From Clostridia bacterium (GTDB lineage Bacteria; Bacillota; Clostridia; Oscillospirales; CAG-272), in contig JAFTRA010000045.1 in NCBI GenBank assembly GCA_017462485.1, positions 1 to 33,471 of the forward strand: DNA of 33,471 nucleotides, read 5' to 3'. Below the pieces are notes generated by a model. That model saw only the letters and a list, made by a program, of their open reading frames with translations, had not been told where the DNA came from and did not search any database. The position numbers and the translations under genes were made by a program. This document shows positions 16,281-32,100 of this stretch, one piece after another. Within the stretch, counting starts at the first letter, position 1; each line of letters begins with the position of its first letter.

Positions 16281-16359
16281 CCGAAATTCGATTATATTAG
16301 TTATAAATGTAAATTGTTGTAGTCAAAAATGCGTTTTTAGCAAAAAACGAGGTGCGCTT

Positions 16360-17088
16360 ATGAAGTATATAAACCGAGATAATCTTTTTGATTATGCCTT
16401 TCTTAACGAGGACACTCTCGTATATCCCGTGCGCGCGGTATGCGTATGCTTTCACGGATATACAGATGCGACTATATATGATAGGAGCAACGAGGAGGCG
16501 AGGTCGCTAGGTGAGAGGGGAATAGCGTGGGTTTTCCCGTATTACAGTGTATGGGCTTGGATGAGTAAAAGCTCGCAAAGCTTTTGCGAGCAGGTATTAG
16601 ACGCTGTGTATGATAGACTCGGGATAGACGAGGACGTTCCGCTTGTTGTCAGCGGTGGCAGTATGGGTGGACTTACAGCGCTTAACTACTTGGTTTATGG
16701 CAAAAGACCTGCTATAGCTTGCGCTCTTAACTGCCCGGTTACCGATATGAACAGAATTTTTGAGGACAGACGCGATTTCAGACGTGCGATACTCTCGGCT
16801 CATATCGAAGAGGATGGTGAGCTATCTGCCATTATGGAAAAATATTCACCGGTGCGCTTTGCTGACCGCTTGCCGAAAATTCCGTATTTTTTGGTTTTCG
16901 GGGAAGATGATCCTTACTTCATAAAGACGCAGATGCCACCGATTGTTGAGAGATTTAAAGAGTGCGGAATTTCACACGTGCTGCGTCTTGAGCCGGGAAT
17001 GAAGCACTGCGATCTCGTTTCTCATAATGAAGCATTTCTTGCCTATTGCGGATTTTTAATTTGCGCGGCTGAGAATAAAAATAATTGA
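16360..17088 (+). CDS. Alpha/beta hydrolase (esterase-like)
   Basis: The 242-aa protein has a complete catalytic triad by position: S101 in GGSMGG, D183 or D184 in FGEDDPY, and H216 in GMKHCD. The fold is that of prolyl-oligopeptidase or dienelactone-hydrolase relatives. It may deacylate sugars before glycosidases act, as neighbouring esterases often do. GAGGTG precedes the ATG. It is cytoplasmic by lack of a signal peptide. Its substrate cannot be read from the sequence. Confidence 0.75.
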   Translation: MKYINRDNLFDYAFLNEDTLVYPVRAVCVCFHGYTDATIYDRSNEEARSLGERGIAWVFPYYSVWAWMSKSSQSFCEQVLDAVYDRLGIDEDVPLVVSGGSMGGLTALNYLVYGKRPAIACALNCPVTDMNRIFEDRRDFRRAILSAHIEEDGELSAIMEKYSPVRFADRLPKIPYFLVFGEDDPYFIKTQMPPIVERFKECGISHVLRLEPGMKHCDLVSHNEAFLAYCGFLICAAENKNN

Positions 17089-17095
17089 TTTTTAA

Positions 17096-17197
17096 GGAGA
17101 TTTTGCTATTTTTTATCCCCACGATATTCACAAACCCGGAATGAGATATGAAAAGCTCTCTGCCGTTAAGAAAATCGTGGTAAAGGTGAAGATTTAA
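17096..17197 (+). pseudogene. C-terminal fragment of a YhcH/YjgK/YiaL (DUF386) gene
   Basis: The frame after the TAA at 17093 reads GDFAIFYPHDIHKPG and then SAVKKIVVKVKI before TAA at 17195. This is the typical end of YhcH/YjgK/YiaL proteins (FAIFFPxDxHxPG, then VKKxVVKV), which act as sugar anomerases in sialic-acid, xylulose and beta-galactoside pathways. A full protein is about 150 aa, so about 115 residues are missing. No start codon with a ribosome site lies before it. It is a relic left by a deletion between the hydrolase and the next glycosidase. Confidence 0.7.
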
Positions 17198-17227
17198 CAA
17201 AAGCTGATTGCTGAATGAGGAAAAAGA

Positions 17228-18697
17228 ATGACCGAGCTTTTTAAAAAATACGTCGAGGAGTTTAACTCACACGACGACGAGCTTTATAAAAACGATATAC
17301 CAAACTCCGAAGCATACGAGTGGTTGGCTGAGAGAATACCGCTTTTTGAATGCTCGGACAAGGAGATAGAGAAAACTTACTATTTCCGTTGGTGGACCTA
17401 CAGAAAGCATATAAAAAGCACGCCTGACGGCTATGCGATAACCGAATTTTTGCCGAACGTGCCCTGGGCGGGAAAGCACAATATAATCAATGCGCCGGCA
17501 GCTCATCACTTATATGAGGGAAGATGGCTTCGTAACTCGGATAAAATATTCTCGGACTATCTTCGTTACTACTTGAATAACACCGAGGATTCACACAGAT
17601 ACAGTGTGTGGCTTCTGAATTCGGCTATGGAATACGAGATAGCAGGCGGTGAGCTTCGGATAGGCAAGGAAGAGCTTGCAAAAATGGTCGAGTATTATGC
17701 CGAATGGGAGCGCACGCACGGACATAAGTCAGGAATGTTCTGGTCTGTTGATGACAGAGATGCTATGGAATACTCCATAAGCGGCAGACGAGAGGGAAAG
17801 GCGGTTAAGGGTATTCGACCGACGCTTAACTCTTATATGTATGCCGAGGCAAAGGCTATTTGCTATTTTGCGAAGAAGCTCGGTGAGAGCGGCATAGCGG
17901 AGCAGTTTGAAAGCAAGGCCGAGAAGTTAAAGCATCTCATAAATGAAAATCTTCTGCATGACGGCTTCTATTTTGCAAAGCACGGAGATTCTGACGGAGA
18001 GCTTGACGGTGCTCTTGACAGAGTGGGCGGAATCGCTTCTCCTATGGAGCTTATAGGATATATTCCTTATATGTTCGGCATTCCCGACGATAAGCTCTCA
18101 AAATGCTTTGAATATCTTCTTGATACCGAAATCTTTCTTGCAAAGACCGGTATGACGACCGTAGATAAAAGACATCCTGACTATCTTAAGAGCTATAATC
18201 ACGAGTGCCTTTGGAACGGATACGTATGGCCGTTTGCTACCTCACAGGTGCTGACGGGACTTATTAAAACTATACACGGGGGTCACTCCGAGCTTAAAAA
18301 TATACTTATACGTCATCTTGAGCTTTATGCTTACAACCACAGAATTAACCTTGATGGAAAGACGCTTCCATGGATAGATGAGGTGCTGAGCCCAAATGAG
18401 ATGAAATGGACGTCACGAGAGATACTCCGAGAGCTTGGTTGGAGAGAAAACCTTGGCGGCAAGGAGCGTGGCAAGGACTATAACCATTCGACCTTTGCCG
18501 ACCTTATTATAACCGGTATCGTCGGCGTTAAGACGGGTAGCGAAAAGCTTGAGCTCGACCCGGCAATCCCTGACGGGTGGGATTATATGAAGCTTGAAAA
18601 CCTCTCTTACCGTGGAAAGCTTTATACCGTAGTGTACGATAAAACGGGCGATAAATACGGACTCGGCAAGGGAATTACGGTTATTAAAAAGCAATAA
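17228..18697 (+). CDS. MGH1/GH63-like glycoside hydrolase
   Basis: This 489-aa protein is an (alpha/alpha)6-barrel enzyme of the GH63-like/MGH1 group. Characteristic parts are EFLPNVPWAGKHN (~75-90), HLYEGRWL, WSVDDRDAMEYSISG (172-186, with the likely acid at D176 or D178), RPTLNSYMYAE, and a late GNGYVWPF-like WNGYVWPFATSQ followed by LPWIDEVL. These enzymes cleave alpha-glucosides, alpha-mannosides or mannosylglycerate. The exact bond is uncertain. The ATG follows GAGGAAAAAGA. It ends the plus-strand sugar cluster. Confidence 0.75.
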   Translation: MTELFKKYVEEFNSHDDELYKNDIPNSEAYEWLAERIPLFECSDKEIEKTYYFRWWTYRKHIKSTPDGYAITEFLPNVPWAGKHNIINAPAAHHLYEGRWLRNSDKIFSDYLRYYLNNTEDSHRYSVWLLNSAMEYEIAGGELRIGKEELAKMVEYYAEWERTHGHKSGMFWSVDDRDAMEYSISGRREGKAVKGIRPTLNSYMYAEAKAICYFAKKLGESGIAEQFESKAEKLKHLINENLLHDGFYFAKHGDSDGELDGALDRVGGIASPMELIGYIPYMFGIPDDKLSKCFEYLLDTEIFLAKTGMTTVDKRHPDYLKSYNHECLWNGYVWPFATSQVLTGLIKTIHGGHSELKNILIRHLELYAYNHRINLDGKTLPWIDEVLSPNEMKWTSREILRELGWRENLGGKERGKDYNHSTFADLIITGIVGVKTGSEKLELDPAIPDGWDYMKLENLSYRGKLYTVVYDKTGDKYGLGKGITVIKKQ

Positions 18698-18785: not shown

Positions 18786-20192
18786 TTAAGAGTCGAGCTT
18801 ATCTACGTGAAGATTCGGGAAGTACTTGCAGAATTCCTTTATCTCCTTGGTATAATCACCCTTCATCTCAATGAAGTGATGAATATAAGGTCCTTCCATG
18901 AGCTTCGTTTCAACGGCTCCGAGATCCTCGAATTCTCCCCAGATATACGTTCCGTGAGTTTCGGGACCTTCGGTTGTGTTGCAAAGCATAGGAAGTATCA
19001 TATACTTTCCACCCTCGGCTCTGTCAATACGCGCAACGGTATATTTGCCGTCGGCTCCTCTGAGCCATGCTCTCTGATTTACAAGTCGAGCCTTGCTTTC
19101 GGGCGCTTTCTGAGAGAGAGGGAACGGTCCGCAGTGCCATAAGAGCTCTGCGTTTTTGTTCTCGGGGTGACGAACGGTAAACTCACCGAATAAGGGGTAA
19201 CCCTTTCCGAGAGTTGCGCTCTTGAGAAGCACCATAGTCATTGCCGCGTGAAGATCGCTCTCGCAGGATATCATATATCCGAGGTCGTTGAGCATACTGT
19301 AAACCGCGCAGGGAGCAAGTCCGTCAAACATCACAGGGGTTGCGGTCCAGCACTCCGCGGAGATAACGTCGAGCTTGAATTCCTCAAACAGATGCTTATA
19401 CATAGCCGCCATGGTTGCCATTGGCTTTATGTATTTCGGAGTAAGCTCATCTAACGTATAATTCGACATAAAATAGTTTTCATATTCAGTTATCTCGTCC
19501 TTGTAAAGCTCGGGAGCCGCTTTCATTCTCTGTTCGATAATAGCAAAATTGATAGGTATTATTCTGATGCCGAACTGCTCCATAAGCTCGCCTTCGTTCC
19601 AAATAACCGAGAAGAAGGGAGCGGGACGGGCGCCAACCTGACCTATGCGCATTCCCTTAAAGTTTTTAACCATACAAGCAACTCTGACGAATCTGTCAAA
19701 TCCGTCCTTGAATTCCTCGGAATCCACCTCGCAGGAGCGAATGAACGAGAACGGAACGTGATATCTCTGCATCTGACGGGAAAGTCCGAAAATTCCGCAC
19801 TGCGAATCGGTGGGGCGCATACCGTCAACGTAGTATTCATCATCAAGAGGCGCCCAAAGCAAAACGGGCTTACCAACTGCTTTTGCGATATCTGTTGCAG
19901 CTTCCTCGTTTCCGAAGTTGCAGTTGATTATCATTACCGCATCTACGTTTTCGTTTTTAAAGCGCTCTGCGACTTCTGCCGCGCTAGCATCGTCAAAAAC
20001 AAGATCCTCGTGACCTATGCCCTTGTTGTCAACAAAGGAAACGTTGTCGCTTGCAAAATTGTTTTCTATGTAATCGACAAATCTCTTTCCTCGTTGCTCT
20101 GCGGAATACCAAGTCAAAAACGTTCCGCGAGGGCGGTCGGTGGTATTTCTTCTCATTGCCACCAAGCCTATCTTAATCTTATAATCAAGCAT
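18786..20192 (-). CDS. L-fucose/L-arabinose isomerase-like protein
   Basis: This 468-aa protein belongs to the FucI/AraA-like isomerase superfamily. Evidence is the Rossmann-like N-terminal half (KIGLVAMRRN, then VMIINCNFGNEEAA), the VGARPAPF and ECWTATP motifs, and the C-terminal GTYIWGEF and IHHFIEMKGDY motifs. Classical FucI is ~590 aa and AraA ~500, so this is a shorter, uncharacterised branch. It probably interconverts an aldose and a ketose with a metal ion. It is the last gene of the operon. GGAGAG lies 7 bases before the ATG. The substrate is not known. Confidence 0.75.
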   Translation of the reverse strand: MLDYKIKIGLVAMRRNTTDRPRGTFLTWYSAEQRGKRFVDYIENNFASDNVSFVDNKGIGHEDLVFDDASAAEVAERFKNENVDAVMIINCNFGNEEAATDIAKAVGKPVLLWAPLDDEYYVDGMRPTDSQCGIFGLSRQMQRYHVPFSFIRSCEVDSEEFKDGFDRFVRVACMVKNFKGMRIGQVGARPAPFFSVIWNEGELMEQFGIRIIPINFAIIEQRMKAAPELYKDEITEYENYFMSNYTLDELTPKYIKPMATMAAMYKHLFEEFKLDVISAECWTATPVMFDGLAPCAVYSMLNDLGYMISCESDLHAAMTMVLLKSATLGKGYPLFGEFTVRHPENKNAELLWHCGPFPLSQKAPESKARLVNQRAWLRGADGKYTVARIDRAEGGKYMILPMLCNTTEGPETHGTYIWGEFEDLGAVETKLMEGPYIHHFIEMKGDYTKEIKEFCKYFPNLHVDKLDS

Positions 20193-20207
20193 TGATTTAT
20201 CTCTCCA

Positions 20208-21608
20208 TTAAATATTTTTATCAGCTATTTTGTTGAAATCGAATTCTTCGACTATACCGTAGTCGGCGTAATCGAAAATATTTGCGTTTTTATCGGGGTT
20301 TATCGCTATAACCGTGCCGGCACGCTCTATTCCCGCAACGTGATGAACCGCTCCCGATATACCTATCGCTATATACACGGGCGGGCTTACCGTCTTACCC
20401 GTCAGACCGAGCTGAATTTCGTAGTCGGCATAGCCGTTGTCAACGAGCTTTCTGGAAGCGCCAAGCTCGGCTCCGATTCTTTCGGCAAGAGCCCGAACCT
20501 CATTTGTTTGGTCCTTGACGCCAAAGCCCATTCCTATGATTATATTGCTACCCGCTCCGCTGTCGGTTCGCACGGTTGCCATTGCGGGTTTCGTAAGGCT
20601 CTTGATTTTAGCTATAATGCTTCCCGAAAGAGCAGGGCGGTACATAATGAGATTTTCACCCTCGCACTCAAGTCGGGTGCAATCGGCACAAAGCCCGAGA
20701 CCGAGCTCTGCCGAAACTGTTGCCGCAAGCCTTTTTGATTTTGAATCGCTGCCCCATAAGACAGCGGTGGGAGTAAGCGCAAGTATCCTTTTTTTGATAT
20801 CCTCGGCATCGGTGAGAGGGATAACTGTAATATCGTCGCTGACCGATTTCGCAAATTCAAAAGGAGCGTCTGTGACTATGCACACCCTCTTTAATCGCTC
20901 GCCACCCTCGGAAATCTCCGGAGTGTCGGGCCTTTTTTGTAATGCTTCGCGGATAACCTCACCGAGCTTTTCCATAGGGATAAACTTGCATTTTCTTTTT
21001 CCCGATGCGTTTTCAAAGGTTTTTATAACCCTCGTCGGCGAGCCCGTAAGTCCTATTCTCTCGGGAGCGGCGCCTATTTTTTCTTTGTCCCATACCTCAA
21101 GCTCTCCAAGTGTCGAGCGGAGCCTTGGCAAACGAAGCTTGACTGATTTTTCCATAGTAAGAAGCAGGGGAAGCTTTGCTTCTGCCTCGCCCTCGCTTCT
21201 TGTCAGAAGTCGAATTTTTTCGCTCTCTGTATCCAAAATCCTCATTACGCCTGTGACGAGATTCATTCCCGAGAGAACGGAGAGCATAGCTCCCGTCTGC
21301 CCCGTGTCTCCAACGAGAGTTTGCCTGCCGCAAAGCACGAGGTCGGGAGATAGCTTTTTTATCGCAAGCGAGAGCGTGTAAGCCGTAGCAAGCGTATCAG
21401 CGCCCGCAAATGCCTTGTCCGAAAGGAGTATCGCCCTCTTTGCTCCGAGTCTCGTCAGCTTTAAAAGCATATCGGAGTGAGAGACGGGACCCATCGAAAG
21501 AATAGTTACCTCGGTACCCGGTACAGAAAGAGCCGTCTCGTAGGCAGAGGCGTCGAACGGACCAAGCTCGCCGTCAAGCCCAAACCTCACGCATACTACG
21601 ATTTTCAT
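20208..21608 (-). CDS. Fused electron transfer flavoprotein (EtfB-EtfA)
   Basis: The first ~185 residues match EtfB (KIVVCVRF, GADTLATAYTL, GRQTLVGDTGQTGAMLS at the nucleotide site). The rest matches EtfA, ending in the FAD motif GISGAVHHVAGI and AINPDKNANIFDYADYGIV. At 466 aa it is shorter than separate subunits combined (~590), mainly through loss of linking and N-terminal EtfA parts. Etf proteins pass electrons between flavin dehydrogenases and other carriers and in some anaerobes bifurcate them. The oxidase and Fe-S genes of the same operon are its likely partners. Its ATG overlaps the kinase stop (ATGA). Confidence 0.85.
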   Translation of the reverse strand: MKIVVCVRFGLDGELGPFDASAYETALSVPGTEVTILSMGPVSHSDMLLKLTRLGAKRAILLSDKAFAGADTLATAYTLSLAIKKLSPDLVLCGRQTLVGDTGQTGAMLSVLSGMNLVTGVMRILDTESEKIRLLTRSEGEAEAKLPLLLTMEKSVKLRLPRLRSTLGELEVWDKEKIGAAPERIGLTGSPTRVIKTFENASGKRKCKFIPMEKLGEVIREALQKRPDTPEISEGGERLKRVCIVTDAPFEFAKSVSDDITVIPLTDAEDIKKRILALTPTAVLWGSDSKSKRLAATVSAELGLGLCADCTRLECEGENLIMYRPALSGSIIAKIKSLTKPAMATVRTDSGAGSNIIIGMGFGVKDQTNEVRALAERIGAELGASRKLVDNGYADYEIQLGLTGKTVSPPVYIAIGISGAVHHVAGIERAGTVIAINPDKNANIFDYADYGIVEEFDFNKIADKNI

Positions 21609-23083
21609 ATATCTGTCTCCTCACTGTAAATAGGGGCGAGAGCATCGTGTACTTTCTTGTATTTTGTAAATAATTGTTTGTATTTTTCTGTATTTTCGTG
21701 ATTGGGATAAATAATTTCTTTCTGTTTTACACAGAGCGAAACCGCATCCTTTGCGGATTTAAATATACCAACGGCAACGCCTGCAAGCATAGCGGAGCCG
21801 AGAGAGGAATCCGAGCTTTCGGTCGTTTTCAGCACCATTCCGAGCGCATCTGCTGTAATGCTTGCCCAAAGCTTACCCTTTGCGCCGCCGCCTATGAGAG
21901 TTGCTTCCTTTTTGTAGGGAATATTAAGGCTGTCAAGATACGTCTTGCAGTCAAGAAGCGAGAGCGACACACCCTCAAGCACGGCTCTGGTGAAGTGAGC
22001 TTTCGTGTGAGTTGCTCTTACACCTATAAAGCTTGCCGAAAGCTTCGGGTCGGCGTACGGTGTCAGCTCACCGTTAAGATGAGGATGGAACATAAGTCCG
22101 TCGCACCCGATATTCACCTTTTCGGCACCTTCGTTAAGAGAGGCGTAATCTCCGCCAAAGGTATCTCTGTACCAGCGGTAAGATGCCGCCGCCGACTTCG
22201 TTCCCGTTCCTGGATACCAAAGTCCGTCGATTATATGCGAGTAGTTTATCATATGTCTGTCGGGATACGGGCGGTCGGTGATTACGCATATTCTGCCTGC
22301 CGTCGCAAGCTTTACCGTAACGTCACCAGCCTCAACGGCTCCCGAGGCGAACACCTCCATAGCGGTATCGGTAGTACCCGTGATAACCGGTGTTCCTGCC
22401 TTAAGCCCCGTTGCCTCTGCCGCAGCCTCGGTAACGCAACCGATAATATCCGTGGGCTTTCTGATTTCGGGAAGGATAGACACGTCTATGCCGCATAAAG
22501 CGCAAAGCTCACCGTCCCACCTCATATTTACCGAGTCGAAGAGCATACTGCCCTCCGCTTCGATATAATCGGTACAGTAAACTCCCGTAAGGAAGTATCT
22601 TATATAGTCCTTTTCGAAAAATATTCGACCTATTTTGCCGAAAAGCTCGCCCTCGCGCTCACGAAGCCAGAGAAGCTGGGGGAGAGTCCATATGGTGTCG
22701 GGCTTGTGGAATGTTTTTTTGAATATTTCCTCGCCGCATTTTTCGTAAAGCTCCCTTGCGTGCTTAACGCTTCTTGAATCCGTCCAATGAATAGCGTTGC
22801 GAAGAGGCTTTGAGTCCTTATCGCAGGCAAGGAACGTATGAGTCGCCGAATCTATGGCTATTGCCGCTATATCCTCGGCGGCTATGCCGCTTTTTTCAAG
22901 CACGGCTTTCGAGTTTTTGATAAGCGCCTCTATCCAATCGTCTGGCGATTGCTCGCAAGCACCGTTCTCAACGTAGAGGGTAGGGTATTCGACGGTATTT
23001 TCCGCCACTATACGACCGTCCTCTGAAAGCAAGGTTGCCTTTGAAGCGCCGCCGCCAAAATCTATTCCAAGCAAATACTTCAT
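21605..23083 (-). CDS. FGGY-family carbohydrate kinase
   Basis: The start is ATG 23083, preceded by GGGAGAAATACCT. The upstream TTG at 23101 lies in the previous stop codon and is rejected. The 492-aa product shows the FGGY two-domain kinase fold: YLLGIDFGGGASKATLL (N-terminal phosphate loop), GTTDTAMEVFASG, YPGTGTKSAAA and a C-terminal GGGAKGKLWASITADAL adenosine loop. Closest in form to xylulokinases. It would phosphorylate a keto sugar made by the isomerase. Start lies 15 bases after the DUF4867 stop. Confidence 0.85.
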   Translation of the reverse strand: MKYLLGIDFGGGASKATLLSEDGRIVAENTVEYPTLYVENGACEQSPDDWIEALIKNSKAVLEKSGIAAEDIAAIAIDSATHTFLACDKDSKPLRNAIHWTDSRSVKHARELYEKCGEEIFKKTFHKPDTIWTLPQLLWLREREGELFGKIGRIFFEKDYIRYFLTGVYCTDYIEAEGSMLFDSVNMRWDGELCALCGIDVSILPEIRKPTDIIGCVTEAAAEATGLKAGTPVITGTTDTAMEVFASGAVEAGDVTVKLATAGRICVITDRPYPDRHMINYSHIIDGLWYPGTGTKSAAASYRWYRDTFGGDYASLNEGAEKVNIGCDGLMFHPHLNGELTPYADPKLSASFIGVRATHTKAHFTRAVLEGVSLSLLDCKTYLDSLNIPYKKEATLIGGGAKGKLWASITADALGMVLKTTESSDSSLGSAMLAGVAVGIFKSAKDAVSLCVKQKEIIYPNHENTEKYKQLFTKYKKVHDALAPIYSEETDI

Positions 23084-23097
23084 AGGTATTTCTCCCG

Positions 23098-23748
23098 TCA
23101 ATAGTTAATCTTGTAATTTTCTCCAAAAATTCCCGCTACCGCGCCTTTTGCTATAAGTCCCTCGTTTTCCTCGTGAGCTATAAGCCATTTGTTTTTGCGG
23201 AAGAGGGTTTTGTCATCGGTTTCATAGTCCAGAGGCAGATTCGTTCCCTCGGGGAGTCCAACGACGCACCCGAAGCCCTCTTCTGTTACCTCGCAGGGAC
23301 AGAAATGGAGAGTCGTAGCGTAAACCTCAACTACTGTACCTTGTGGCAGATAAAACGCCTTCATATCGGCGGAGTTAAGCCTGCCGTTACGAATATCGCT
23401 TCTCTTTCCGAGTATAAGAACAAGGGGAGTTATAGCGATATTAAGCTCCGATGAGGAATGCCACTCGGTAGCGCCGAGGATATTATTGTGTCCGTGGCAG
23501 TAACCTATCTCGCAGGGAAGAGTTCCGAAAATTTTGTCCTTTATCTCTTTCGCCACGGTCAAGCTCTCAAAGGTCGGAACCGAGGCGGAGTAAAGCGAGC
23601 CCTCTTTGACGCGGGAAATTTTCTTTGCCTCTTCGGTTATCTCGCTTGCGTCAAGGTCATAGAGCGGTCTGCCGTACTCAAGGAATTTTTCGTCTGTTAC
23701 GTCGAATAATTCAAGCGAGGGGTTAAGCTCTCTCAAGCGTTCAATCAT
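23098..23748 (-). CDS. DUF4867 family protein
   Basis: This 216-aa protein fits the DUF4867 family, known mainly from sugar operons of Firmicutes. It appears cupin-like. Candidate metal ligands are H85 and H87 (YCHGHNN), E95 and H97 (TEWHSS), E101, and H148 (TLHFCPC). A role as a sugar isomerase or mutarotase is possible but not established. AAAGGA precedes its ATG and it is co-transcribed with the isomerase and kinase genes. Confidence 0.65.
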   Translation of the reverse strand: MIERLRELNPSLELFDVTDEKFLEYGRPLYDLDASEITEEAKKISRVKEGSLYSASVPTFESLTVAKEIKDKIFGTLPCEIGYCHGHNNILGATEWHSSSELNIAITPLVLILGKRSDIRNGRLNSADMKAFYLPQGTVVEVYATTLHFCPCEVTEEGFGCVVGLPEGTNLPLDYETDDKTLFRKNKWLIAHEENEGLIAKGAVAGIFGENYKINY

Positions 23749-23760
23749 AGCTTTAATCCT

Positions 23761-24555
23761 TTATCTGTTTTCTATCCAGACGTGCTCGGGGTCGGAGCTT
23801 CTGTTAAAGCCCTGATGGTCACCCGCCATAAGCCAGAGGAAATAACTCTTGTAGCCGGGGGTGGTAACCGTCGTGTGATAGCCGTAGGGGAACTCAACGA
23901 GCTCGTCGTTTTTAACACGGTACGCCTCATCTACCTCACCGTCAGCAGTGTAAAGGCACTGAACGGCAAAGCCGCTCTTCGGCTCGAAGAGGAAATAATA
24001 TATCTCCTCGGCAACGCACTCATTGGGCATATTGTCCTCGTCGTGCTTGTGGGGAGGGAAGCCCGCCCAGTTGCCCTCGACGCAGTAAGCCTCGCCTACC
24101 GTGAGAGCTTTAGCGTTGGTCGTTCCGTCAATTATGAAGCTCGTTTCTCTCTGGTAGGGAACCTCTCCGAGAAGCTTCAATGTAACACGCTCACCGCGGA
24201 GAAGCTGGGGGGCGGTCTTTTCCTTTACGGGTGCGGAGCAAACGGCAATTTTTATTTTATCTAAAGCCTCAATTTCGCATTTTTCGTCTATTGGCATATA
24301 AAAGCTTTCCGCACGTCTGTTTTCAAAAACGGTGTTTCTGTTTCCAACGTTTTCCCACTTTTCATTGCCTACGTAAACGTTGCAGTGGCCCTCAAGCATA
24401 ATGAAAGCGCACTCCTTGTCCTCGGTGTAAAACTCAAGGCGCTCCGAGGCGTCAAGCTCGATTATACCGAACTCGAGTCTTTTAAGCGAGCACTCACCGA
24501 TTTTACACACGGGTGTATATCCTTTTTTTGATTCGTATGTCTTTTTATAGTTCAT
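23761..24555 (-). CDS. IolB/KduI-like 5-deoxy-glucuronate isomerase family protein
   Basis: The 264-aa protein has the bicupin layout of IolB. The metal site is visible as H169 and H171 (PPHKHDEDNM), E183/E184 (AEEIYYFLF) and H227 (YGYHT). IolB interconverts 5-deoxy-glucuronate and 5-dehydro-2-deoxygluconate in inositol breakdown. Here IolG, IolE and IolD are absent, so another uronate-like or deoxy sugar is possible. The ATG overlaps the PfkB gene end by 11 bases, and GGGAG lies inside that gene. Confidence 0.8.
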   Translation of the reverse strand: MNYKKTYESKKGYTPVCKIGECSLKRLEFGIIELDASERLEFYTEDKECAFIMLEGHCNVYVGNEKWENVGNRNTVFENRRAESFYMPIDEKCEIEALDKIKIAVCSAPVKEKTAPQLLRGERVTLKLLGEVPYQRETSFIIDGTTNAKALTVGEAYCVEGNWAGFPPHKHDEDNMPNECVAEEIYYFLFEPKSGFAVQCLYTADGEVDEAYRVKNDELVEFPYGYHTTVTTPGYKSYFLWLMAGDHQGFNRSSDPEHVWIENR

Positions 24556-25459
24556 ATCCGTTCTCCCTCATAAATTTTACGACCGTGTCGAAATCCGGCA
24601 CGCTCTCTCTTGCGCCAACCGAGGTGCATTTGATAGCCGATACGGCGCTTGCGAAAAGGCAGCATTTTTTAAAGTCAAAGCCCTTTGCCATTCCTGCCGC
24701 AAACGCTCCGTGGAAAACGTCGCCCGAGCCGTTGGTATCAACCGCCTTTACCGAAAACGCGGGATAATGAATTAAGGTGGATCCGTCGTACATAATTCCG
24801 CCGAGCTTACCCTGTGTTACTACTACAACCTCGGGAGAATAGAGCTCGAAGAGTCTTTTTGCCGCTTCCTCGGCGGTTTTCGTTCCCGTATGTCCCATAG
24901 CGAATTCCTCTGACGGAATCATAATGTCGGTAAGCGAAAGAAGTCTATCGACTCCCTCGTAAAGACCGCCGCAATCGTAAAGCACCTTAACGCCGCTTTC
25001 CTTTGCGACTCTTGCCGCCTCGACGGCGGCGCTCATCTCGTTGCCGTCAACCATAAGAAGAAAGGCTTCCTCTAGCGCGCGCTTTTGCGCTTCAGAAAGA
25101 ACGAGAGGCGGAAGGTCGCCCCTGTCAAATACGCAGGTGCGGGAGGCAGTGTCGGCAGAGAGCCATAAAACCGACGCAAACGAGCGATATCCGTCAAAGA
25201 CGTCGATAAGACTTGTATCAATACCGTATTTTTCAAAATCCTTTTTGAGAAATACTCCGCCGCTGTCACTCGAAAGAACTCCGATATACGCAGCGCTCTC
25301 TCCGAGCTTGCTTGCGGCAACCAGCCCTGTCGCCGTGGGGCCGCCGCCCGCGCACTTTGAGCCGGTGGCTCTCATCTTCGTATCCTCGGAGGGATACGAA
25401 GGTACGTTGTAGAGCGTGTCAAACACACACGCTCCTATTCCTACAATTCTTTTTCCCAT
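24545..25459 (-). CDS. PfkB-family carbohydrate kinase
   Basis: This 304-aa protein is a ribokinase/PfkB kinase. The N-terminal sugar-binding glycine motif is GSKCAGGGPTATGLVAASKL. The C-terminal signature is DTNGSGDVFHGAFAAG, with catalytic base D247. In inositol operons an IolC kinase of this family phosphorylates 5-dehydro-2-deoxygluconate before an IolJ aldolase splits it, so the local order is similar. Sulfofructose and ketohexose kinases are other relatives. Separated by one base from the aldolase stop. Confidence 0.85.
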   Translation of the reverse strand: MGKRIVGIGACVFDTLYNVPSYPSEDTKMRATGSKCAGGGPTATGLVAASKLGESAAYIGVLSSDSGGVFLKKDFEKYGIDTSLIDVFDGYRSFASVLWLSADTASRTCVFDRGDLPPLVLSEAQKRALEEAFLLMVDGNEMSAAVEAARVAKESGVKVLYDCGGLYEGVDRLLSLTDIMIPSEEFAMGHTGTKTAEEAAKRLFELYSPEVVVVTQGKLGGIMYDGSTLIHYPAFSVKAVDTNGSGDVFHGAFAAGMAKGFDFKKCCLFASAVSAIKCTSVGARESVPDFDTVVKFMRENGYEL

Positions 25460-25460
25460 A

Positions 25461-26303
25461 TCAAAGGGCCTTTCCGTCAGCTCCGGTAAGTCTTATCTTG
25501 CTTACCGCAAGCGCTTTTACGTATTCGATTGGCTTTTTCATAAAGATATCTATGGCAAGGCTTCTTTCCGGGTCGTCAAGGGTAGCTTTCGTTCCGTCCG
25601 CGAAAGCGCAGCAAACGTCTGTTCCGATATTCATTTTGCGAATACCTGCAGCAATAGCCGCCTTTACCTCTTCGTCGGGAATACCCGAGCCGCCGTGAAG
25701 CACGAGCGGAATGCCGCCCGTCGCCTCTCTTATAGCCTTTATTCTTTCAATATCGAGCTTCGGGGGCTTTTTGTAGTGACCGTGAGCGTTGCCTACGAGC
25801 ACCGCAAGACAGCAGACACCCGTCTGCTTTACGAATTCGGCAGCCTCTTCGGGAGATGTGAACTCCTCCATAGCGTCGTCGTTAACGCTTCCGACGTGAC
25901 CTATCTCACCCTCAACTCCGATGCCTATCGACTTGCATACGTCAACTATGTGCTTCGTCATTTCAACGTTTTTCTCGAAGCTGTGTACCGAGCCGTCAAG
26001 CATAATGCCCGTGCAGCCCCAACGGAGAGCGCGTGTTACCTCCCACTCCGACGGTCCGTGGTCGAGGTGGAAGCAAACGGGAACGCTCGCTCTTTCTGCC
26101 GCCGCAACAACGGCGGGGCAGAGATAAAATCCTACCTCTTCGTTTAAAAGTCTCGGATATACCTGAATGATAACGGGAGCCTTTTCTTGCTCCGCGGCGT
26201 CGATAACACCCATTACCGTCTCGGTATTATATACGTTGAATGCGGGAACGCAGAAATTACCGCGCTCCGCCATTCCTATAATGGTCTGTAATGAAACTAA
26301 CAT
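25461..26303 (-). CDS. Class II fructose-bisphosphate aldolase family protein
   Basis: The 280-aa protein has all class II aldolase landmarks: PAFNVYN, D81 and zinc ligand H82 (HLDHG), E131/E133 (GVEGEIGHVG), H174/H176 (GNAHGHYK), H203 (LHGGSGIP) and NIGTD. The family splits ketose-1-phosphates or bisphosphates into DHAP and an aldehyde. Fructose-, tagatose- and IolJ-type substrates are all possible. GGGGGAGAAATAACAA precedes the ATG. It lies between the oxidase genes and the PfkB kinase, so it likely handles the kinase product. Confidence 0.88.
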   Translation of the reverse strand: MLVSLQTIIGMAERGNFCVPAFNVYNTETVMGVIDAAEQEKAPVIIQVYPRLLNEEVGFYLCPAVVAAAERASVPVCFHLDHGPSEWEVTRALRWGCTGIMLDGSVHSFEKNVEMTKHIVDVCKSIGIGVEGEIGHVGSVNDDAMEEFTSPEEAAEFVKQTGVCCLAVLVGNAHGHYKKPPKLDIERIKAIREATGGIPLVLHGGSGIPDEEVKAAIAAGIRKMNIGTDVCCAFADGTKATLDDPERSLAIDIFMKKPIEYVKALAVSKIRLTGADGKAL

Positions 26304-26319
26304 TTGTTATTTCTCCCCC

Positions 26320-27405
26320 TTATCCAAGAATAAGGTCCTCGAGCGAGAGTATTTCAACGCTCTCGTCTGCTACTGCCTTAAGAGAACGGTATTCCGAAAC
26401 GCTTGCCGTAACGATAACGGACTCTCCAAGGCTCTTTGCGTTGAATATTCTTCTCTCTGCCACGAGCTTCATAACCTCGGGCATATACTGTGCCATAAGG
26501 ATATTTCCTGCCCATACGGTCTCGGCTCTGTTTAAGTGCATCTCGTGAAGAGTAGCAAATGCCGAGATAACCTCTCTTGCGCACTCGGTCTCCTCGAGGT
26601 CGCGAGAAAGCTGGAAGGGGTCCTGATATACTACGGTCTTGCCGCTTGCCTTTGCTTTAAGCGCTCCCGACTTTACAAGCTCTGCGAGGTATGAGGTATA
26701 GGTATATGCCTTGCACTCAAGCTTAACGTCGTAGGTGGGGTAGGTCTGCTTAACCGTCTTTGCGTCGGCAGGGTCGTAAAGAATTACGGTCTTGTAGCTG
26801 TTCATAACCGAGGCTGTCTTGTTCATCTGCTCCTTGGTTTCGTCGGATGCGCCGATAAGGAAATCAAGCTGTGCGCCCGAGTCGGTCTCGTCCTGAAGAA
26901 CGGTGAACTCAACGCCTGCGCTCTCGAGAACCTTTATAGCCTTGACTGCCTCCTCGCACGCCATATAACGAGCGTCAGAGCCTAGGAAGAGAAGAGTATC
27001 CGTTTTCTTTTCGTGCTTTGATATAGCCTCCGAAAGCTTACCGCAAAGAGCAGTCTTTCCGTAGGCATTTCCTATATCAAGGCAGTTGTCTACCATTTTA
27101 TTTATGTATTCGGGGAGCTTACCGTCAAGAGCCGCCTGGAGTCTTACCTCCTTTGTGAACATAACGGGGTCCCAACCTGTAACGCAATCGCGAACGCAAG
27201 CGCCGCAGCCTGCGCACTCGTAAATGTTGTCCATTATTTCGTCGAGCTCAATAGCTCCTCTGTTTACCATTGAGATACCGAGCGCTCTTGCTCTCGGGGT
27301 GCTTCTCTCGTGTCCCGTAGCGTTTCCTATGGGGCAGATGTGGTGGCACATCCAGCAGAAACGGCAGGAGTCAACGTGCTGTTTGGATTTTTCTGACATT
27401 ATCAT
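26320..27405 (-). CDS. Fe-S subunit of the oxidase, with degenerate CCG domains
   Basis: The start is ATG 27405. GGAGG (27418-27414) lies 8 bases upstream. The in-frame ATG at 27420 would place that site inside the gene. Of 361 aa, the first ~85 hold two [4Fe-4S] motifs (CRFCWMCHHICP and CAGCGACVRDC), as in GlcF/GlpC. The rest aligns with two CCG domains, but FPGC is FLGS, DPCHLGR is DPFQLSR and CCGAGG is VWAGN. So no CCG cysteine cluster remains. It should shuttle electrons between the FAD oxidase and Etf. Confidence 0.8.
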   Translation of the reverse strand: MIMSEKSKQHVDSCRFCWMCHHICPIGNATGHERSTPRARALGISMVNRGAIELDEIMDNIYECAGCGACVRDCVTGWDPVMFTKEVRLQAALDGKLPEYINKMVDNCLDIGNAYGKTALCGKLSEAISKHEKKTDTLLFLGSDARYMACEEAVKAIKVLESAGVEFTVLQDETDSGAQLDFLIGASDETKEQMNKTASVMNSYKTVILYDPADAKTVKQTYPTYDVKLECKAYTYTSYLAELVKSGALKAKASGKTVVYQDPFQLSRDLEETECAREVISAFATLHEMHLNRAETVWAGNILMAQYMPEVMKLVAERRIFNAKSLGESVIVTASVSEYRSLKAVADESVEILSLEDLILG

Positions 27406-27419
27406 AGTATCTACCTCCA

Positions 27420-28856
27420 TTAAAGACCAAGCTTGAACGGGTTCATAATTCCGTTCGGGTCGAGCTGCTTTTTAAGTCCCTCAAATACCTGCATAGCGGG
27501 GCCGTACTGCTCTTTCATAAGTCTGCCGAGCTTGATACCGACACCGTGGTGGTCGTTTACTACGCCGCCGTGAGCCAAAGCCGCACGTACGCCGCAGGTC
27601 CAGATAGCCTGGTGAAGTCTGAGTGCCTCAACCGGATCCTCGGGAACGTCCTTGCCGTCAACGATGAAGCGGTCGTAAACCATAGCGCCCCACTCGTACC
27701 AGTGAGAGAAGTGAGCTATAAACTTCGCCTGGGGGAAGTTCGTCTCTATCGCTTCCTTCATAGCCCAGTAAATTTCCTCTATCTTGCCGTAGGGCGCAAT
27801 AGTATCCATAGTACCGAACATCTGGGGAATATCCATCATATGACCGGGGTAGAAGAAGGTTATCTTTTCTTTCCACCACTTCTCACCGTACTCGCTTCCG
27901 AGGTCCTCTGCGCCGTACTTTTTGAAGGTGTCAAGAAGAATCTTTTCCTCAACCTCAACCATTTCGTGACATCCCTCAATAGCAACGTTCATAAACGCGC
28001 CCTTGCGCTCCACACCTACTATTTTCTTGATAAGAGAACCTGTTTCGGCCTCGTCGTAAAGACGCATAACAGAGGGCTTGAACTTCTGAAGAAGCTCGCG
28101 GGATGCCTGGAAAGCGCCGTGCATATCCTGGAATAAGAATCCGCGGAAGCGACGTTCCTCGGGCTGATCGAAAATGCGTATCTGAGCCTTGGTGATGATA
28201 CCGAGCGTACCCTCGGAGCCTATGAATATCTGGTTAAGGTCGGGCCCTGCCGCGTGCTTCGGAGCGGGAGAGGTCGTGATAATATCTCCGTTCGGGAGAA
28301 CTACCTCCATCTGAAGTACCATATCGTCGATTTTACCGTACTTCGTAGAGCAAACGCCTATTCCTCTGTGCGCAAGGAAGCCTCCTACCGTAGAGCAGGT
28401 GAGAGAAGAGGGATAGTGCATAGTTGCCTTTCCAACCTCGTTAGCCGCCCACTCGATGTGCTTGTAAATAGCGCCGGTTCCGCATTCTATGTACATTCCC
28501 TCGGTGTTAACCTCGTAGATTTTGTTCATTCTCTTGGTGTCGAGAAGAATGCCGCCGCAAACGGGAATAGCACCGCCCTGCGTTCCGCCGCCTGCGCCCC
28601 AGGTGGTTAAGGGAAGCTTGTAGTAGTTTGCGATTTTAACGACCTTGGAAACCTCGGTTGCGTCCTTGGGCGAAACTATAAAGTCAGCCTCGGGCATACG
28701 GCAGCCGCGGTCAGCCCACATACGTGAGAGCCAGTAGTAGTCCACGCTGTGAGTTGCCTTGTCGATTTGTCTTACCGAGCAGTTTTCAACGCCTACCGCG
28801 TCTTCAAGCTCTGTAAGAATCATAGAAAATAAAAAGTTGTTCATTTGAATTTGCAT
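27420..28856 (-). CDS. AGPS/GlcD-like FAD-binding oxidase
   Basis: The 478-aa protein has the PCMH FAD-binding region (TTWGAGGGTQGGAIPV; ECGTGAIYKHIEW; HYPSSLTCSTVGGFLAHRGIG; GSEGTLGIITKAQI) and a C-terminal cap ending RAALAHGGVVNDHHGVGI. The His-His-Gly motif is typical of alkyl-DHAP-synthase-like and some 2-hydroxyacid dehydrogenases. With the Fe-S and Etf genes it forms a likely lactate/glycolate dehydrogenase-type complex. The oxidised substrate is not known. It is the first gene of the operon, and AGGAG lies 7 bases before the ATG. Confidence 0.85.
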   Translation of the reverse strand: MQIQMNNFLFSMILTELEDAVGVENCSVRQIDKATHSVDYYWLSRMWADRGCRMPEADFIVSPKDATEVSKVVKIANYYKLPLTTWGAGGGTQGGAIPVCGGILLDTKRMNKIYEVNTEGMYIECGTGAIYKHIEWAANEVGKATMHYPSSLTCSTVGGFLAHRGIGVCSTKYGKIDDMVLQMEVVLPNGDIITTSPAPKHAAGPDLNQIFIGSEGTLGIITKAQIRIFDQPEERRFRGFLFQDMHGAFQASRELLQKFKPSVMRLYDEAETGSLIKKIVGVERKGAFMNVAIEGCHEMVEVEEKILLDTFKKYGAEDLGSEYGEKWWKEKITFFYPGHMMDIPQMFGTMDTIAPYGKIEEIYWAMKEAIETNFPQAKFIAHFSHWYEWGAMVYDRFIVDGKDVPEDPVEALRLHQAIWTCGVRAALAHGGVVNDHHGVGIKLGRLMKEQYGPAMQVFEGLKKQLDPNGIMNPFKLGL

Positions 28857-28973: not shown

Positions 28974-29005
28974 AAATGGAAATTATTTTCATTTTGAGGT
29001 GTAAA

Positions 29006-29845
29006 ATGGAATCTATACTGCATAAAATACGTTTTTCGGTTGACGAGATGGGACCTGCGGAGAAGAGAATAGCCGATTTTTTGCTATCTCACTCGGGAGA
29101 GTTTCTCGGAATGTCCATTTCAGAGCTTTCGCAAAGGTGCGGCTGCGGAGACGCAACGGTAGTAAGATTTTCACGCAGAGTGGGTGTTTCGGGATACCAG
29201 GAGCTGAAGCTCCGTATAGCGAGCGAGCTTAATTCCTCGTCAGCGGTAAGCCGCGAGATAGAGCCGACTGACAGCTGCTTTGAAATTTTCAGAAAACGTA
29301 TAGTTGATATTTCAAACTCACTGCGCAATACCGAAACCGTACTTGACGAGGAGCAGCTCGAGCTTGCGGCAGAGACGATTATGAATGCCGAGCGTATAGT
29401 GATTTTTGGGCTTGGAAATTCTGCCGCAATCGCTCATGACGCGTCGCATAAATTTTTAAGGCTCGGTCTTGCGGCTCAAAGCTGCTGCGATAACCATATG
29501 CAAGCTATAATAGCCTCGCATTTGAAAAGGGGAAGCGTTGCTATCGGAATTTCCCACTCGGGAAAATCGAGAGATATCGTCGAAGCTCTCCGCCTTTGTA
29601 AGCTCTGCGGAGCCACGACTGTATGTATAACCAACCACGGAAGCACGCCTATAACCGAGGTTTCGGATATTTCGCTTTTCACGAAGTCCGAGGAAACCGA
29701 CTATTCGATTCTCGCTATGAGCTCGAGAATCGCGCAGCTTGCGATATTTGACAGTATCTATACCTACATAGTTTTGAGGGCGGATAAGGCGTCAAGACAG
29801 GCAGTGCATAATACCGAGTTCGCGCTTGAAAACAAAAAGTATTGA
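29006..29845 (+). CDS. RpiR/MurR-family transcriptional regulator
   Basis: The ATG at 29006 follows GAGGTGTAAA. The frame could be read from 28976, but that lies inside the promoter. The 279-aa protein has the N-terminal RpiR helix-turn-helix (SISELSQRCGCGDATVVRFS and RRVGVSGYQELKL, ~1-75) and a C-terminal SIS domain (~125-250; VIFGLGNSAAIAHDA, GISHSGKSRDIVEAL, ITNHGSTPI). SIS domains bind phosphosugars, so the effector is probably a sugar-phosphate intermediate of the divergent operon. Whether it represses or activates is not visible. Confidence 0.88.
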   Translation: MESILHKIRFSVDEMGPAEKRIADFLLSHSGEFLGMSISELSQRCGCGDATVVRFSRRVGVSGYQELKLRIASELNSSSAVSREIEPTDSCFEIFRKRIVDISNSLRNTETVLDEEQLELAAETIMNAERIVIFGLGNSAAIAHDASHKFLRLGLAAQSCCDNHMQAIIASHLKRGSVAIGISHSGKSRDIVEALRLCKLCGATTVCITNHGSTPITEVSDISLFTKSEETDYSILAMSSRIAQLAIFDSIYTYIVLRADKASRQAVHNTEFALENKKY

Positions 29846-29968: not shown

Positions 29969-30003
29969 AAATGAAAAGACTACTATGGTAATAGGTGAAG
30001 CTT

Positions 30004-32100
30004 ATGAGTGGTAGGGAAAGAGATAAAACAGATTATTGCAAGTACGCAGACGTCTTTTACGGAAACGGAGAGACGGATAGATTTTTTGACGACGGGCTTG
30101 CGGGCGAATGGGTTTATATAAAGGCGCTTTGCGGTAATACGACTCCACACGCAACCTTGCCGTTCGGAAAAATGTCCGTTGGGGCATATAGCGGAGGTTA
30201 TCCAACGGGCTACGGCAGTCATTATCCTAATTCAAATGGTAAAATTAAAAAGCTCTTCGATAAGCCTATGGCAAGGGGCTTCTCGCATTTGCATCATTCG
30301 GGTACGGGAGCTATCAGATACTACTATAATTATGCAGTGACGACGACCTTTTACGATAAGCTCGGCGGGGCGTTCAAATACCGTGAGCTGACGAATGAAA
30401 AAGCTTATCCCGGTTATTACTCCGCAACTCTCGGGGAGGTTTTTTGCGAGATTACGGTTGATGGCAGCGTCGCTTTGCACAGATACCGCTTTGGAAGAGT
30501 AGGCGGAAAAGTTGCCGTGGATTTTTCAAACGACGGTCTTGATAAAATTTTCGGAAAAGATTTCTATTCGACGGCAAAGGACGCGTCGGTAGAGATAATA
30601 TCAAAGAGCGAGGTGCTCTTTTCGGGTGTGCTTTCTGGAGTTAGGCTTTACTTTTGTGTGAGCGCTGACACGTCCCCGGTGAAGCTTTCGCTTTTTGAGG
30701 GCGAGAGGGAAAATGACTTTCGCAAGCTTAACATAGGGGAGTCGGAGAAGAGATTCGGCGCGGTTTTCGAATTTGATGAAAGAGAAGCCCTGATACGTGT
30801 GAGCTATTCGACGGTTTCTGCCGAGACTGCGGTGGCTTCTGCGAGAAGCTCTTGCCTTGCGTTTGACGAGGCTCGCGCTCTGGCGTACGAAATATGGAAT
30901 GAAAAGCTTTCGGCTATAAAAATAAAGACCTCCGACGAGGAGCTTAAGAAGAAATTTTATTCAAATCTTTATCACTCGCTGATTAAGCCCACCGATATGG
31001 CGGGGGAGAACGTTCTTGGGGTTAATGGGAATACCGTGTGCGATTTTGCAACCCTTTGGGACCAGTACAAAACGGCGCTGCCGCTTATATACGCGCTTTA
31101 TCCCGAGATGAGCGAGAAAATAGTTCGGGGAATAGAAAATATAAGCGATACTCTCGGCAAACTGCCGTGCAGCTTCGGTATGAGTGATATATATCCTTGC
31201 GAGGAGCAGGCAAAGATGCTGGGCGTGATTACGCTATGCGACGCTTATCATATGGGCGTTTCGGGTATAGACGCAAAGGTTGTAGAGAAATGCGTGATAA
31301 GAGAGCTTCAGCGTGATGATTACAAGAAATTTCTTGAGTGCGGCAGGTTTGAGAGGTACACGCATATTCTCGACGTGACCGACGCTTGCCTTGCCGTAGC
31401 GGAGATAACAGATGACGAAGACTTGAAGCAAAAACTTCTTTCTCTTGCTGAAAACCATACAAACGCATATTCCCCCGACGGTTTGATGTCAGAGGAGTCG
31501 AGGTATTACGAGGGGGATAGGTACACCTACTCGTTCAGACTCGCGAATAATATGAACGAGAGAATTGCGCTTGCCGGCGGCAAAGAGCGCTTTGCTTTGC
31601 TGCTTGATTCCTTCTTCGGCTTTGACGCTCTTCTCGGTAACGGAAAAAAGGCGAAGGACGGGGCAAATCACAGATTCGAGGGCTTCAATAACGAATGCGA
31701 TATGGAAGCGCCCTACGCTTATATTTACGCTGACAGGCACGACAGAACAGCAGAAATAATAAAGGAATGCGTCAGCCGTTCGTTCGGAGAGGGAAAATGC
31801 GGGCTTCCGGGTAATAACGACTCGGGCGGTCTTTCTTCCTGCTTCGTATGGAACGCGCTCGGAATATTTCCGCATAGCGCGGGCGGCGAATTCTTGCTGG
31901 GAATACCGCTCTTTGATGAAGCGGAGCTTCTTTTGAGCTCGAATAGCCGTCTTGTCATACGCTTCGACAAAAGCGGCGGTGAGCTACCAAGCGCAAGGTT
32001 AAATGCCGAGCTTAACGGAGAGATGATAGAAAATTACAGAATTCCGATGAAAAAGCTTATGCGCGGCGGAATTTTGGAATTTAAATACGTGGAACAGTGA
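30004..32100 (+). CDS. GH92 alpha-mannosidase-like glycosidase
   Basis: The ATG at 30004 is preceded by AGGTG 6 bases away. A GTG at 29995 is part of that site. The 698-aa enzyme has the GH92 start (YCKYADVFYG, GNTTPHATLPFGKMSVG, SHLHHSGTG), the (alpha/alpha)6 region (TDMAGENVLGV, TLWDQYKTALPL) and the C-terminal signature LPGNNDSGGLSS with D606, followed by FVWNALGIFP. GH92 enzymes remove alpha-mannose with calcium. The usual GNEP-type motif reads NNECDMEAPY here, so specificity may differ. There is no signal peptide, so it acts in the cytoplasm, unlike most Bacteroides GH92. Confidence 0.85.
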   Translation: MSGRERDKTDYCKYADVFYGNGETDRFFDDGLAGEWVYIKALCGNTTPHATLPFGKMSVGAYSGGYPTGYGSHYPNSNGKIKKLFDKPMARGFSHLHHSGTGAIRYYYNYAVTTTFYDKLGGAFKYRELTNEKAYPGYYSATLGEVFCEITVDGSVALHRYRFGRVGGKVAVDFSNDGLDKIFGKDFYSTAKDASVEIISKSEVLFSGVLSGVRLYFCVSADTSPVKLSLFEGERENDFRKLNIGESEKRFGAVFEFDEREALIRVSYSTVSAETAVASARSSCLAFDEARALAYEIWNEKLSAIKIKTSDEELKKKFYSNLYHSLIKPTDMAGENVLGVNGNTVCDFATLWDQYKTALPLIYALYPEMSEKIVRGIENISDTLGKLPCSFGMSDIYPCEEQAKMLGVITLCDAYHMGVSGIDAKVVEKCVIRELQRDDYKKFLECGRFERYTHILDVTDACLAVAEITDDEDLKQKLLSLAENHTNAYSPDGLMSEESRYYEGDRYTYSFRLANNMNERIALAGGKERFALLLDSFFGFDALLGNGKKAKDGANHRFEGFNNECDMEAPYAYIYADRHDRTAEIIKECVSRSFGEGKCGLPGNNDSGGLSSCFVWNALGIFPHSAGGEFLLGIPLFDEAELLLSSNSRLVIRFDKSGGELPSARLNAELNGEMIENYRIPMKKLMRGGILEFKYVEQ

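Follow-up and report, generated by a model that had tools for sequence, protein, structure and literature searches.

Positions 18786–28856 of the window, by which we mean the entire 33,471-nucleotide stretch of Clostridia bacterium DNA analysed here (GCA_017462485.1, contig JAFTRA010000045.1; Bacillota, Clostridia, Oscillospirales, CAG-272), carry a nine-gene operon that varies the isomerase-kinase-aldolase type of sugar pathway by adding an unusual redox unit. This unit, in which a flavin adenine dinucleotide (FAD)-dependent oxidoreductase and an iron-sulfur (FeS) subunit are encoded together with a fused electron-transfer flavoprotein (Etf), is the operon's most novel part. We tentatively propose, with rather less than even confidence, that the genes form two modules serving one sugar, where module A (isomerase, PfkB kinase, and class II aldolase) would split a ketose-1-phosphate and module B (flavoenzyme, FeS subunit, Etf, IolB-like isomerase, and FGGY kinase) would handle the other half of the molecule and carry out an Etf-linked oxidation. 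The nine open reading frames (ORFs), all contiguous and near-overlapping on the minus strand, and the divergent regulator gene are as follows:

27420–28856, minus strand: FAD-dependent oxidoreductase, alkyl-dihydroxyacetonephosphate (alkyl-DHAP)-synthase-like and hyperconserved, with FAD_binding_4 and FAD-oxidase_C domains
26320–27420, minus strand: FeS subunit with Fer4 domains and two four-cysteine motifs (C19, C22, C25, C29 and C69, C72, C75, C79)
25461–26303, minus strand: class II aldolase (PF01116) with an NxxTDxC motif, nearest solved structure YdjI
24545–25459, minus strand: PfkB-family kinase (PF00294), nearest solved structure sulfofructose kinase, a likely ketose 1-kinase
23761–24555, minus strand: IolB-like cupin isomerase (TIGR04378, 221.4 bits, cut-off 205)
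23098–23748, minus strand: DUF4867 cupin of the SftX/SqvB family (231.8 bits), a putative ring-opening or mutarotase helper, accessory
21605–23101, minus strand: FGGY kinase, xylulokinase-like, with FGGY_N and FGGY_C domains
20208–21608, minus strand: fused Etf (beta-alpha) with ETF and ETF_alpha domains
18786–20192, minus strand: sugar isomerase of the FucI/SftI superfamily, whose only NCBIfam match, SftI, lies far below cut-off
28976–29845, plus strand: RpiR-family regulator with HTH_6 and SIS domains

Adjacent genes are separated by at most 16 base pairs (bp) or overlap slightly: the FAD and FeS genes share one base, FeS and aldolase lie 16 bp apart, aldolase and PfkB 1 bp, PfkB and IolB overlap by 11 bp, IolB and DUF4867 are 12 bp apart, DUF4867–FGGY and FGGY–Etf each overlap by 4 bp, and Etf is separated from the isomerase by 15 bp. 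Relatives of the RpiR regulator adjoin many of the related operons, and an AraC-type gene adjoins others. Pattern scans for promoters (13 hits against 9.2 ± 2.7 expected) and terminators (15 against 12.0 ± 3.6) lend the operon no support of their own.

A scan of genome contigs for the isomerase returned 168 confirmed relatives, of which the best 80 loci were analysed; nearly all of these are metagenome-assembled, mostly from the guts of ruminants and other herbivores. In 42 of the 80, tblastn places the full set of seven further core genes (FAD, FeS, aldolase, PfkB, IolB-like, FGGY, and Etf) at the isomerase locus, and in 13, some of which lie on short contigs, it places none of them. Because the greedy ORF picker used to draw the gene maps occasionally called genes on the wrong strand or left one out (an enolase-like gene of genome G237, for example, was missed and recovered by tblastn), presence counts rest on tblastn, and since the relatives are mostly metagenome-assembled, an absence can mean a contig break. 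DUF4867 occurs in just 19 of the 42 complete relatives and is thus accessory, as is an aldose-1-epimerase-like gene present in 19 of 104 loci.

To remove the bias of anchoring on the isomerase, we carried out a second survey, anchored on the FAD protein, of 291 genomes of the class. The flavoenzyme is present at no less than 82% identity in 22 of them, with the next matches at 39% or below (best long match 33%), and the FeS subunit, at 44% or more, in 21, all within the 22 FAD-positive genomes; two others match FeS at 25–26%, and in the single FAD-positive genome lacking an FeS match (G131) the FAD gene sits on a 3.1 kb contig. Fifteen of the 22 FAD loci were read, the remainder being the window itself and six on contigs shorter than 8.2 kb. 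FAD, FeS, and the IolB-like gene are present in all 15, aldolase and PfkB in 14, FGGY in 14, and Etf in 13, so that the six non-isomerase partners are complete in 12 of 15. The missing FGGY and Etf genes (L143, L152) fall where the stretch read, or the contig, ends, and in L140 aldolase and PfkB are missing within the operon itself. The isomerase lies upstream in eight of the 15 loci, with NagB and NagA in between in L141, and the contig of L153 ends at FAD. As judged from sequence, conservation of the operon far exceeds chance, which bears out the proposal of a single conserved operon made by the first-pass annotation, a model's reading of the window without database searches.

Several features of the related loci deserve mention in their own right. 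The median pairwise identity of the flavoenzyme is 0.90, against 0.53–0.79 for its operon partners (IolB 0.79, isomerase 0.74, FGGY 0.67, PfkB 0.66, aldolase 0.66, FeS 0.65, DUF4867 0.54, and Etf 0.53); the FAD identity gap in the class sample, from 82% to at most 39%, is bridged by relatives at 72% and 57% elsewhere in the phylum. Two IolB-like types, the second 34–39% identical to that of the window, occupy the same operon position (types noted in L016, L036, L038, L039, L044, L051, and most FAD-anchored loci). NagA and NagB are inserted within the operon in L008, L012, L027, L035, L051, L141, L143, and L144, with an additional MurQ-like SIS protein in L143; a route for N-acetylmuramic acid and D-lactate was considered on account of these genes and rejected as a general explanation, because NagA/NagB relatives occur in just 12 of 104 loci. 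Upstream of the isomerase, L013, L059, L070, and L071 carry glycoside hydrolase family 31 (GH31), Gfo/Idh, quinone-reductase-type, and EamA-type genes, with a GH3-type gene in three of the four and an SDR gene in three.

The division into two modules emerges from genomes in which the operon is split. In G115 the isomerase, aldolase, and PfkB genes form an operon of their own on another contig, and FAD, FeS, IolB, DUF4867, FGGY, and Etf stand together in an operon that lacks all three. In G402, whose flavoenzyme is 57% identical to that of the window, the order is RpiR, FAD, FeS, glycerol dehydrogenase, a TRAP-type transporter (named by eye), a TIM barrel protein, IolB-like, and FGGY, and no PfkB, aldolase, isomerase, or Etf homologue is found in the 20 kb read. 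These arrangements do not support the earlier pairing of the isomerase with the FGGY kinase and of the IolB-like protein with PfkB, although the proposals that PfkB feeds the aldolase and that Etf is encoded with the oxidase both hold. Across the class, the isomerase is found at 43% identity or higher in 18 of the 22 FAD-positive and two of the 269 FAD-negative genomes, the 43% line having been set after the table was seen, with FAD-negative G070 at 42% over part of the length.

A second isomerase-aldolase cluster, scanned for families on G043 and matched to it by tblastn in G237 and G071, extends this picture. In G043 and FAD-negative G237, isomerase, aldolase, DUF4867, and a distant PfkB gene lie in one run with aldehyde dehydrogenase, MOFRL/DUF4147 glycerate-2-kinase-like, and enolase-like genes, and a 6.5 kb contig of G071 holds the stretch of this run from aldehyde dehydrogenase to DUF4867. 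Such a set would fit cleavage to dihydroxyacetone phosphate (DHAP) and glyceraldehyde, with the latter converted via glycerate and 2-phosphoglycerate to phosphoenolpyruvate.

The isomerase has no Pfam match at E 0.001 and no solved relative by phmmer or with a 24-sequence profile, and its sole NCBIfam match is the sulfoquinovose isomerase SftI at 103.5 of the required 700 bits. The initial label 'FucI-like' is therefore valid at superfamily level only, whereas the family names first given to the other genes were right. The window genome encodes two further isomerase paralogues at 37–39% identity (G000:C38:80022, L182, and C40:19304, L183); the 15 kb read around either one showed no recognisable operon partner. 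In L040 the isomerase adjoins a gene of the fructose-6-phosphate-aldolase type (236 of 246 bits), another aldol-cleaving partner. In the window's own class II aldolase, the residue aligned with the end of the N-V-D-T-E-L-R motif is Cys, as in 43 of 43 relatives and YdjI, and it is Arg in two KbaY-type structures. A D-xylose route was discarded because the window genome has its own XylA over cut-off, which makes the xylulokinase-like FGGY kinase and the isomerase dispensable for xylose. PMC11968277 describes DUF4867 proteins as companions of FGGY and fucose-isomerase-family genes across large, uncharacterised groups, with no function proven for them.

In module B, the flavoenzyme has as its best match among solved structures alkyl-DHAP synthase (135.6 bits, over residues 57–476), followed by D-lactate dehydrogenase (121.6) and LctD (97), and it reaches 190.1 bits on the GlcD model TIGR00387, under the cut-off of 567.9. 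HxSHx[YF] and HHG motifs are present in 15 of 15 aligned family members. For the Etf-linked lactate dehydrogenase LctD, PMC9232219 lists metal ligands His377, His384, and Glu422 and the base His423; relative to these residues, placed via the D-lactate dehydrogenase alignment and shared motifs rather than by direct residue-by-residue alignment of LctD, the window protein keeps one of three metal ligands (His382 for His377) and the base (His437 for His423), has His436 in place of Glu422, and offers no counterpart His to His384. Mutagenesis summarised in PMC3509576 marks R352, Y508, and R447 of alkyl-DHAP synthase as important, of which the first two align with Arg265 and Tyr394 of the window protein, kept in 44 of 44 sequences (the alignment assumes a chain numbering offset of 3, which gives Arg at R352 and R447 and Tyr at Y508). 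A triose or polyol, or a phosphate thereof, is the probable substrate of the flavoenzyme, rather than lactate or glycolate; the lactate- or glycolate-like substrate suggested at first is disfavoured by the loss, by motif, of two of three metal ligands in an oxidase that lies nearer to alkyl-DHAP synthase.

Every one of the 45 aligned FeS sequences, that of the window among them, has the eight cysteines of this subunit; a CCG domain was not found in the window protein, and its G402 homologue has one. The eight best structure matches of the Etf are the Etfs of Car (CarCDE), Lct, Bcd-type, and other complexes, all of which we take to be bifurcating, and only ETF and ETF_alpha domains were detected at E 0.001, with no ferredoxin domain. 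The FGGY kinase scores 375.6 bits on the XylB model TIGR01312, just under its cut-off of 380.25, and a Mesorhizobium relative reaches 392.

We also read 14 more distant flavoenzyme contexts, seven from 21 other matched genomes and seven from 21 matched plasmid records. The oxidase often travels with an FGGY kinase, which is present in the FAD cluster in eight of these contexts (G302, which has the same operon type, G402, G311, Mesorhizobium, Microbacterium, Cupriavidus, Labrenzia, and Paracoccus); the Burkholderia context, with one 52-bit match, is doubtful, and no FGGY gene is found in those of G471, G666, G629, G418, and Methylobacterium nodulans. Several times it also travels with glycerol-type genes: GlpK/GlpD-type genes occur in three of the 14 contexts and glycerol dehydrogenase in three. 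GlpK and GlpD are annotated in Microbacterium, in Cupriavidus a GlpK-like gene (328 of 590 bits) and a GlpD-like one (275 of 360) lie ahead of FAD, and GlpA- and GlpK-like genes lie near FAD in G311 (named by eye). No lactate or glycolate gene was recognised in the 14 contexts, most of whose neighbours were read without a family scan. Separately, on the Cupriavidus metallidurans megaplasmid (L175, 5590–10434), the GlpK-like, GlpD-like, and alkyl-DHAP-synthase-like genes are consecutive and are a candidate for glyceryl-ether catabolism, although the GlpK-like and GlpD-like scores fall short of the curated cut-offs; in Mesorhizobium (L172, 16437–17576), the gene after FAD resembles by eye an FeS subunit that has lost most of its cysteines, and it has no Pfam match.

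On the two-module reading, the DUF4867 protein would act as a mutarotase-type helper, a role for which the aldose-1-epimerase-like gene may stand in relatives, while the isomerase would convert the aldose to a ketose. PfkB would then phosphorylate the ketose, we infer at C1, and the aldolase would cleave the ketose-1-phosphate, giving DHAP along with an aldehyde that bears no phosphate; glyceraldehyde is the likeliest such product and would make the sugar a hexose. The half of the sugar that does not become DHAP, or else a triose or polyol akin to it, may be converted by the IolB-like isomerase and FGGY kinase to a phosphate, and oxidation of a glycerol-3-phosphate (G3P)-like or small polyol (phosphate) substrate may fall to the FAD-FeS-Etf complex. 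The potential of such a substrate would be too high for NAD+ alone, so that the Etf would be expected to run in the confurcating direction. We further consider, as a rather improbable but specific refinement, that the complex represents a new class of bifurcating or confurcating enzyme, in which an alkyl-DHAP-synthase-type flavoenzyme, capable of forming a flavin-N5 adduct with a carbon adjacent to a ketone, would exchange electrons via the FeS subunit with a bifurcating-type Etf, oxidising a polyol- or ketose-phosphate or reductively removing a C1 substituent within a gut hexose pathway.

A number of observations weigh against this scheme. Characterised IolB acts on a C6 acid, not a triose, and the FGGY kinase is xylulokinase-like over glycerol kinase (375.6 against 150.5 bits). 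The position of alkyl-DHAP synthase R447 is Pro337 in the flavoenzyme (44 of 44). Two fructose-bisphosphate aldolases (7ncc, 3q94) have Gln where the window aldolase has its Cys, so that this residue groups the enzyme with YdjI and does not itself tell of 6-phosphate binding. A close isomerase was not found in four of the 22 FAD-positive genomes (83–92% complete), and the G302 operon has neither Etf nor isomerase homologues in the 20 kb read; given that Etf homologues are missing near FAD in both G302 and G402, other electron acceptors are possible there. In the second cluster, PfkB beside the isomerase in G043, G071, and G237 is just 29–31% identical to that of the window, the glycerate-kinase match in G043 reaches 88 of 550 bits and the enolase match 277 of 300, and the scheme has no use for the Ldh_2-type, KDPG-aldolase, SDR, and aldo-keto-reductase genes of G043 and G237. 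These four gene types sit at 281–3673 of L180 and 12394–15851 of L184.

Among the alternatives, a confurcating dehydrogenase for a 2-hydroxy acid (lactate, glycolate, or glycerate), made from the released aldehyde, would draw on the same FAD-FeS-Etf complex. The 190-bit GlcD match, the D-lactate dehydrogenase and LctD structures among the flavoenzyme's matches, the proximity of the Etf to LctB and LctC, and an Ldh_2-type gene after the operon in L139 and in the G043/G237 cluster all speak for it, but the operon has no aldehyde dehydrogenase and two of the three metal ligands given for LctD in PMC9232219 are missing by motif, which places this option on the unlikely side. We consider quite unlikely a divergent inositol or uronate route in which the IolB-like protein, PfkB, and the aldolase would fill the roles of IolB, IolC, and IolJ for a C6 acid that the oxidase, in place of IolG-IolE-IolD, would supply. 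IolB does exceed its curated cut-off, yet PfkB reaches only 101.3 of the 300 bits set for IolC, and the IolB-like gene stands apart from PfkB and aldolase in G115 and G402. Myo-inositol catabolism proper is ruled out by this unmet IolC cut-off together with the absence of IolE (TIGR04379) and IolD (TIGR04377), whose models have zero matches in the whole genome at E 0.001, in agreement with the earlier remark that the inositol front end is absent.

A hybrid sulfo-Embden-Meyerhof-Parnas (sulfo-EMP) route for a sulfoquinovose-like sugar, with the isomerase, DUF4867, PfkB, and aldolase as its core and the oxidase acting on sulfolactate or a relative, would account for the SftI match and for sulfofructose kinase as the best PfkB structure; DUF4867 and a PF01116 aldolase are parts of sulfo-EMP2 according to PMC9594981. 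The Ldh_2 genes score highest on the L-sulfolactate dehydrogenase model, yet at 241–252 of 500 bits, the isomerase falls at 103 of 700, and the FGGY and IolB-like proteins are left unexplained. At the YihV positions that we take to bind the sulfonate, PfkB keeps Lys27 (44 of 45, one gap) but has Asp112 for Asn109 (Asp in 39 of 45) and Asn140 for Arg138 (45 of 45), and the GH31 genes near two relatives reach 73–76 bits on NF007746, presumably the YihQ model, below its 553-bit cut-off. Sulfoglycolysis is hence not shown, failing on the isomerase and on the kinase family to judge from their sequences, and we hold it to be very improbable. Distinctly doubtful, too, is a mere convenience operon, in which isomerase, kinase, and aldolase would process a galactose-type sugar via tagatose-1-phosphate beside an unrelated redox complex. 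Glycosidase genes hint this way: GH2 relatives occur at 14 of 104 loci (the two that were scanned fit GalA best, at 731–735 of 900 bits), GH4 alpha-galactosidase-like genes at three (476 and 481 of 486 for the two scanned), and at one locus a gene with GLAA-B (GH110-type) domains adjoins the isomerase. However, all 15 FAD-anchored loci keep the IolB-like gene with FAD-FeS, 14 of them keep FGGY there as well, and galactokinase (GalK) is over cut-off in 16 of the 22 FAD-positive operon genomes, where no complementarity between it and the operon is seen. A galactose-type substrate is accordingly a weak lead; an Escherichia coli strain evolved for tagatose used galactose via tagatose once given an isomerase, as described in PMC10101011.

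Beyond the RpiR regulator, the window carries GH92 and SGNH-hydrolase-like genes (29995–33252), and on the other flank Melibiase-family and MGH1-like glycosidase genes (14295–18697); a large protein with Laminin_G_3, metallophosphoesterase, and collagen-like repeats is encoded at 6934–9942.

If the two-module reading is true, the operon would represent a common, as yet unassigned sugar route of gut Clostridia, and its Etf-coupled flavoenzyme may be of a type not previously used, to our knowledge, in electron bifurcation. The reading would also give a testable place to DUF4867, which has no assigned function according to PMC11968277, and the module split makes each step addressable with single purified proteins.

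A limited literature search found no published description of this operon, a weak negative, and its parts are best placed by comparison with known systems. The sulfo-EMP2 and sulfofructose transaldolase (sulfo-SFT) clusters (SftI/SqvD, SftX/SqvB, SqiA) share the isomerase superfamily, DUF4867, and a class II aldolase; in contrast to these clusters, the window kinase is PfkB (PF00294) rather than PF00365, the isomerase is far under the SftI cut-off, no sulfoquinovosidase is recognised at the two GH31 genes scored on NF007746, and FGGY, IolB-like, and FAD-FeS-Etf are added. The myo-inositol back end (IolB-IolC-IolJ) shares an IolB over cut-off with PfkB and a PF01116 aldolase alongside, but differs by the IolC score and by the IolE and IolD that the window genome lacks. 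The YdjH-YdjI pair of E. coli K-12, which acts on ketose-1-phosphates, likewise couples a PfkB kinase to a class II aldolase, and YdjI is the best structure match of the window aldolase, with the same Cys; the partners differ, being isomerases, FGGY, and the Etf complex in the window. The Ldh-EtfAB complex (LctBCD) of Acetobacterium woodii pairs a FAD dehydrogenase of the same family with an Etf near that of the window, whereas the window flavoenzyme lacks two of three metal ligands by motif, the Etf subunits are fused, and a separate FeS subunit takes the place of the EtfA ferredoxin domain. Finally, alkyl-DHAP synthase shares the SHxY and HHG motifs and two of three mutagenesis-supported residues with the window flavoenzyme, which lacks R447 and, unlike the synthase, has FeS and Etf partners and belongs to a sugar operon.

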